Source: Thermobaculum sp.
GTDB taxonomy: Bacteria > Chloroflexota > Chloroflexia > Thermobaculales > Thermobaculaceae
Assembly (NCBI GenBank): GCA_016782125.1
Contig: JADDPA010000209.1
Span: 1 to 44,489 of the forward strand
Length of the DNA stretch: 44,489 nt
Reading direction: 5' to 3'
Numbering within the stretch: position 1 is the stretch's first letter; each line of letters begins with the position of its first letter. Below the pieces are notes generated by a model that did no database searches, was not told the origin of the DNA, and was given only the letters and a program-made list of their open reading frames with translations. The translations under genes and the position numbers were made by a program. This document shows positions 382-593 of the stretch, piece by piece.

Positions 382-433
382 AACCTCACTTTGCAGGTTG
401 GCCGTGGGAGGCACTACGGCGAGGACCCACGGC
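382..433 (-). promoter_or_regulatory. Probable expression platform of the Mn riboswitch
   Basis: Between aptamer and start codon the minus strand can form an 8-bp perfect stem GCCGTGGG/CCCACGGC (433-426 with 408-401). It can also form a second small hairpin, AACCT/AGGTT (399-395 with 386-382), that hides the ribosome binding site of terC. No run of T follows either stem, so control of translation looks more likely than transcription termination. The pairing is seen; the switching mechanism is inferred. Confidence 0.6.
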
Positions 434-435
434 AC

Positions 436-556
436 GCATCGGTGCCTTATAGGTCTCGCCATCAGTGCCTAATCGATTGGCACCTACCGGTCAACCGAGG
501 GTCGAGAGACCCCGTATTGACGACCGACCAGCCCGTGCGGGTGGCTACTCCCCCAA
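436..556 (-). promoter_or_regulatory. yybP-ykoY manganese riboswitch upstream of terC
   Basis: On the minus strand the leader of the TerC gene carries the two hallmark loops of the yybP-ykoY aptamer: GGGGGAGTAGCC (554-543) and GGCGAGACCTAT (460-449), about 80 bases apart. Between them are GTCAATAC (521-514) and paired segments such as GTGCC/GGCAC. In this family the two loops dock and bind Mn2+, and the usual target genes are TerC/Alx, MntP and P-type ATPases, so the downstream gene fits. Exact aptamer ends are my estimate. Confidence 0.9.
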
Positions 557-563
557 CAATGAC

Positions 564-593
564 ATTCTATCCTACGACTCCGGTGCCAGTCAC
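564..593 (-). promoter_or_regulatory. Promoter for riboswitch-terC
   Basis: GTGACT (593-588) and TAGAAT (569-564) are separated by 18 bases on the minus strand. The predicted start of transcription falls just before the riboswitch aptamer, which is where it should be. Confidence 0.6.

Follow-up and report, generated by a model that had tools for sequence, protein, structure and literature searches.

Does the leader of a TerC/Alx-family gene at the end of a Thermobaculum contig carry a manganese riboswitch, and if so, by what means would it act on a gene before which no T run is found? A preliminary description of the stretch analysed here (44,489 nucleotides, referred to as the window) had read a complete module of this kind into positions 382 to 593. 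Here we find that the element belongs to a known riboswitch class, yybP-ykoY, and is ordinary except that the T run of its expression platform has been lost in the genus. The computed basis for this is a covarying aptamer that carries the L1 and L3 loops of validated members and begins about at the start point of a promoter, and on these grounds it is very probable that a yybP-ykoY riboswitch controls the TerC/Alx gene, with binding of Mn2+ predicted from the likeness to known members.

All components of the locus lie on the minus strand, in the order promoter, aptamer, hairpin, ribosome site and TerC/Alx gene, and the arrangement that had been described, with an 8-bp stem and a hairpin over the ribosome site, is borne out on that strand. 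The promoter-like sequence GTGACT - 18 nt - TAGAAT (593-564) agrees with the consensus at 9 of 12 positions; the count for this site is 1 in the window against a mean of 0.1 over 50 shuffles. At least nine matches to the promoter consensus occur in 57% of 143 related leaders, against 5% of shuffles, and in these leaders the end of the -10 box typically falls 10-12 nt upstream of the first paired G's of the aptamer. Judged from the position of the promoter, the 5' end of the RNA is predicted to lie close to that of helix P1.1. At the other end of the leader, the Shine-Dalgarno sequence GTGAGG (389-384) lies partly within a weak hairpin, AACCT/AGGTT (399-395 with 386-382; the segment folds at -7.9 kcal/mol), which is the hairpin over the ribosome site. 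The start of the gene had been placed at TTG 382, which we rejected as too near the Shine-Dalgarno sequence; the better placed TTG 376-374, at the position of which sister genomes carry ATG (G001) or TTG (G002), is most likely the start codon.

The gene (376-2) is incomplete, running off the contig end at position 1, and its truncated product scores 58.8 bits with Pfam TerC and 170.6 bits with NCBIfam TIGR03718. A full-length sister protein (L071) belongs to the TerC/Alx family, reaching 438.8 bits with TIGR03718 (R_switched_Alx) against a cut-off of 246.4; over 296 aa its identity to E. coli Alx, an annotated Mn2+ exporter, is 50%. The closest named matches of the TerC protein come from 'Chloroflexia bacterium YX1bin4' (94% identity) and, at 79% identity each, from a contig labelled Rubrobacter and from 'Thermomicrobiales bacterium YX1bin8'. 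For TerC proteins, export of Mn2+ has been reported from Vibrio (PMC13274385) and the loading of exported enzymes with metal from Bacillus (PMC10550928). Because the sister protein falls into R_switched_Alx and shares half of its residues with Alx, and because of these reports, the manganese role that had been assigned to TerC from the leader fits known biology; it is consistent with the Alx relationship and adds little to it, and what is known of TerC is unchanged by the finding.

Beside the divergent TerC leader, on the plus strand, the window carries two adjacent tRNA genes (RF00005 matches, 939-1087), and the same neighbourhood is found in a sister genome. Beyond them, at 1185-1378 on the plus strand, stands a match to 6S RNA (RF00013; 31.1 bits, cut-off 46.4, E 0.015), which recurs with equal score at the syntenic place of the sister genome (L063 2051-2244). 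This stretch is probably the 6S RNA gene of the host.

Membership of the class had been proposed to be decided by a search with RF00080, the lack of a hit being named as one refutation. That model (Rfam 15) gave no match in the window at its gathering scores, none at E<=10 in positions 300-940 and none at E<=10 in the whole genome from which the window comes (a 2.96-Mb draft). This is a weak test, since the leader of E. coli mntP, given as a validated class member in PMC9603457 and PMC7266159, scores 41.6 bits and so falls under the model's own cut-off of 45; the E. coli alx leader is unlisted at E<=0.01. Because a validated member fails the same score, a missing gathering score does not exclude membership, and the reading of a silent RF00080 as evidence that the element is not a riboswitch was dropped after the mntP control. 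The RF00080 alignment holds no pairing for the P1 strands, which may be the reason for its poor detection. Over the window's genome and 60 relatives, RF00080 gave matches at E<=1 in 20 of 61 genomes and reached its cut-off in 2, and at 20 loci chosen by motif it matched over the motif in 6 at E<=10, with none above 45 bits. Weak matches of the window to RF02534 and RF02927 lay below cut-off and were set aside as chance. The simple pattern GGGGAGTAGCC-N60-90-GGCGAGACC, by comparison, occurs in 24 of the same 61 genomes, mostly before TerC, and in none of them (0/61) when it is read backwards as a control.

What supports the yybP-ykoY aptamer before TerC is a covariance model from which the window's family was withheld, not the RF00080 route. 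Two alignments were used, A1 with 53 of 54 aptamers including the window (L089:2019-2189, which has a long insertion, was left out) and A4 with 36 rows, P2 included and the window's family left out. In A1, 90.8% of the cells in P1.1, P1.2, P3.1 and P3.2 are paired, with two-sided changes in 18 of 21 pairs, P3.1 and P3.2 contributing all of theirs (13/13); the corresponding values for A4 are 91.4% and 20 of 25. On none of five measures did any of 500 shuffles, which ignore kinship, come as high in either alignment, and slid versions of A1, which partly allow for kinship, were paired at 25-46% and stayed below the observed values on all five measures, as did every slide of A4. The helices that covary are P1.1, P2, P3.1 and P3.2; P1.2 is nearly invariant and hence says little. 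Model R1, which has the window in its training set and includes pairs placed by RNAalifold inside L1 (columns 10-18 and 11-17 of A1) that we reject as contradicting the known L1 loop, scores the window at 83.4 bits. Model R2, built from the 36 A4 sequences with a structure that we drew up ourselves, gives the window 64.8 bits (E 2.3e-15); the two E. coli leaders score lower, that of mntP with 46.1 bits (E 2.5e-10) and that of alx with 18.4 bits (E 0.0067), these E-values being rough. One and the same model thus finds the window and a validated member, and the window element is, on this comparative evidence, a yybP-ykoY riboswitch with Mn2+ as its predicted ligand. The assignment to this known class is well supported, and the element is one that Rfam's standard model overlooks. 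RF00080 misses or under-scores most elements in one whole class of Chloroflexota; searches with it therefore understate manganese control there, and its seed in Rfam 15 may need revision.

The match to both models spans 560-444, of which 560-447 is the aptamer itself. In P1.1, a helix that covaries in A1 and A4, the 5' strand UUGUUGG (559-553) pairs with 453-447, with one U-U mismatch. The L1 5' strand GGGGGAGTAGCC (554-543) includes GGGAGUA (552-546), which is invariant in the relatives of the 53-sequence alignment, and opposite it stands the L1 3' strand GGCGAGACC (460-452). By alignment and pair counts, the segment 460-447 divides into the P1.2 3' strand GGC (460-458), the L1 3' strand GAGA (457-454) and the P1.1 3' strand (453-447). 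The L1 loop (GGGGAGUA / GAGACC) is conserved, the columns GGGAGTA and most of GC-AGAC being invariant in the 53 sequences, the window among them. P2, a hairpin CCC-GCAC-GGG (541-532), has merely 3 bp in the window, and its columns covary in A4. The P3.1 - L3 - P3.2 arm (531-487), identified by covariation and by comparison of L3, bears the presumed metal-contact loop L3 (UCGUCAAUAC, 523-514), which contains CGUCA in the window, with an A that is invariant in all 53 sequences. An invariant L3 adenosine is reported to contact Mn2+ in the yybP-ykoY class (PMC6754395), and alignment with the E. coli leaders suggests that the CGUCA adenosine of the window would be the one to do so. The P4 hairpin GGUGCC/GGCACU (484-464) is predicted from the constrained fold of the window, in which it is present; its columns are poorly alignable across relatives.

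The leader of E. coli mntP resembles that of the window in its identical L1, in the order P1.1, L1, P1.2, P2, P3.1-L3-P3.2, P4 (as predicted in the window), L1, in being found by R2 and in preceding a Mn transport gene. The window differs from it in a short P1.1 with a mismatch, in its platform and in being unmatched by RF00080. E. coli alx shares with the window a TerC/Alx gene and an L3 only one place apart, whereas its leader obtains the low R2 score given above.

How the aptamer could be coupled to expression can be read from the relatives. A terminator-like hairpin followed by at least four T within 90 nt after the aptamer was found in 105 of 144 elements, and in 102 of these the 3' strand of L1/P1.1 also supplies the beginning of the 5' arm. 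Of the three exceptions, inspection showed two to have an overlapping terminator as well and one (L002, in G002) to be false, its T4 standing beside the start codon, which brings the count to 104 of 144. This search replaced a sorting of platforms by fixed 9-nt or 5-nt complements, which proved too crude. The L1/P1.1 3' strand of the relatives covaries with its partner in the terminator: downstream of aptamers with GCGAG stands CTCG in 72 cases and TCTT in 7, downstream of those with GCAAG it is CTCG in 4 and TCTT in 15 (Fisher p 2.6e-9 on 98 of 144 elements, kinship uncorrected; the other 46 were classed as 'both', 'neither' or other cores and are left out of the table). For the transcriptional yybP-ykoY riboswitch of L. 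lactis, P1.1 and the terminator are reported to compete, the P1.1 3' strand being common to the aptamer and the OFF hairpin (PMC11087558), and the strand shared by aptamer and terminator in the relatives agrees with that mechanism.

In the window the corresponding strand lies at 427-409. This anti-aptamer strand, homologous to the 3' arm of the relatives' terminator and lacking its T run, forms a duplex with 470-452 when the leader is folded without ligand (470-464 and 462-452 with 427-424 and 422-409) at -29.1 kcal/mol, against -17.5 kcal/mol (sd 2.6) for shuffles, 3 of 1000 being as low. It is the strongest alternative pairing of the leader and is absent from the preliminary description. Its standing against shuffles, together with the overlapping terminators of the relatives, indicates a platform that is exclusive with P1.1/L1. 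The alternative, ON-state hairpin GCCGUGGG/CCCACGGC (433-401, -17.2 kcal/mol) is the 8-bp stem already described, GCCGTGGG (433-426) pairing with CCCACGGC (408-401); by our reading of the leaders, the T run of many relatives lies inside the counterpart of this hairpin, which is thus an anti-terminator. The T run itself is missing beside the anti-aptamer of this leader in 3 of 3 genomes of the window's genus, and the window has no terminator-like site, as the preliminary description had held for the T run. The genus therewith differs from L. lactis, and its OFF hairpin captures the 3' strand of L1 and a portion of P4 as well.

Sister genera keep the terminator (T6 in G003, T4 in G006), so that the genus offers a clean comparison of platforms, with the same gene and aptamer and with the terminator present in sister genera and absent here. 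A second copy in G002 (L221), before a TerC paralogue, also keeps a T4 terminator. In the window's genome (G000) and in G002, GTAGTGCC stands in place of the T run and extends the pairing into P4; the anti-aptamer of G002 reaches -28.7, a value as low being found in 0 of 300 shuffles, and its 8-bp hairpin is kept, a C to T change there giving a G-U pair. G001 has GGCAAGACC and has lost the anti-aptamer (-13.0, with 157 of 300 shuffles as low). Genus g11, of another family, holds five elements with an extended anti-aptamer of -32.6 to -32.9 and no T run. This looks like a repeated conversion of a terminator platform, seen in few genomes. That two Chloroflexota lineages, the window's genus and g11, lost the T run of a terminator-type switch and rebuilt it in T-less form by extending the arm into P4, with the same anti-aptamer logic, is a tentative proposal, possible rather than probable; if true, a single riboswitch before a single gene would show the natural steps by which transcriptional control is converted to control of another kind.

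According to the mechanism that we propose, Mn2+ would dock L1 on L3 and hold P1.1, the downstream strand would be kept from the anti-aptamer, and the 433-401 hairpin would form (ON). Without Mn2+ the 470-409 hairpin would form and the aptamer would be undone (OFF). In most relatives this OFF hairpin would be an intrinsic terminator; with no T run left in the window's genus, the OFF state there must act other than by intrinsic termination. As a membrane protein, the gene product would either export Mn2+ or supply it to enzymes that are themselves exported. In foldings of the window, imposing the aptamer costs about 21 kcal/mol, and switching would therefore have to be kinetic.

The preliminary description had taken translation control as likely. 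The absence of a T run on which this rested is real; the exposure of the Shine-Dalgarno sequence changes without consistency. When the aptamer is imposed on the window, exposure rises from 0.34 to 0.93 (mean of six bases) or from 0.24 to 0.71 (four bases) and the start codon becomes less exposed, not more; in G002 exposure falls from 0.59 to 0.25, and in G001 it is flat. Over 74 TerC leaders there is no trend (mean change +0.02 with a terminator, n=55, and -0.02 without, n=19), and a rule by which the ON state exposes the Shine-Dalgarno sequence was rejected. That the OFF state acts on the translation start, the likeliest mode, is thus a guess, to which we give an even chance; otherwise it would act through Rho or RNA decay. 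Control at transcription by the same aptamer and ligand, through a Rho-dependent or unrecognised terminator, is the strongest alternative and in our estimate rather unlikely: it draws on the arm-overlapping intrinsic terminators of the relatives (105 of 144 by search), on the T4 kept in the second copy of G002, on a report that E. coli mntP is regulated by Rho besides its riboswitch (PMC11647493) and on the inconsistent Shine-Dalgarno exposure, and is opposed by the lack of a T run and of any terminator-like site in the window.

That the aptamer belongs to the class but senses another divalent ion is improbable. Common yybP variants are described as probably sensing other divalent ions (PMC7266159), and elements in this class of Chloroflexota also precede genes for P-type ATPases, Na/Ca exchangers and NhaA. 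The window and E. coli mntP, however, have the same L1 (GGGGAGUAGCC, GGCGAGACC), the window's L3 UCGUCAAUAC differs from the alx L3 UCGUCAUUAC at one place, and the downstream gene is a relative of Alx. That the riboswitch is decaying, with an aptamer still readable, a platform that no longer switches and a constitutive gene, is least probable of all, for although none of the three genomes of the genus has kept the T run, G001 has lost the anti-aptamer too, and Shine-Dalgarno exposure is inconsistent between G000 and G002, both of the latter retain an extended anti-aptamer far stronger than shuffles together with the 8-bp hairpin, and the five g11 elements likewise have an extended anti-aptamer and no T run.

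Beyond this locus, R1 was run on 158 genomes of the class and matched at E<=0.001 in 87; in the window's genome it finds this element alone (E 7.7e-16), the next match having E 0.43. After removal of identical copies, 157 matches left 144 distinct elements, from a scan of 190 of 233 loci, most of the others being second copies of the same places. The elements precede 80 TerC genes, a kind over-represented here because loci L071-L130 were chosen for encoding TerC, 21 P-type ATPases, 17 Na/Ca exchangers and 3 UPF0016/GDT1 genes, and in one case each a second kind of TerC, NhaA and a DedA-type (VTT) protein; for 20 of 144 no such gene lies in the stretch examined. These assignments were checked with Pfam for eight kinds, one example apiece. 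A literature search for a manganese riboswitch in Chloroflexota found no paper; one found for yybP-ykoY together with Chloroflexi reportedly names the family as widely distributed.

Some of these elements stand before less familiar genes. Five manganese-riboswitch-like aptamers (L162, L167 at 739-848, L190, L194 and L197) precede genes of one cluster, of which the sole one tested with Pfam, that of L162, encodes a membrane zinc protease of family M50; a literature search for a manganese riboswitch together with a site-2 protease or peptidase M50 found no paper. Of the eight aptamers in genome G079, two precede Spo0M-like genes (L167 1799-1909 and 3573-3682). In L207 and L227 the longest downstream reading frame encodes a YugP-type zinc peptidase, with 152-343 nt between, and the single aptamers before NhaA and the DedA-type protein are those of L067 and L154; these four are candidates for a changed ligand specificity or for manganese regulons that have grown larger. 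Finally, aptamers of genus g14 (L208 and L212-L215) have the L1 3' strand GGTCAGACC instead of GGCGAGACC, L209 scoring the same as L208, and this strand is a possible variant binding core.
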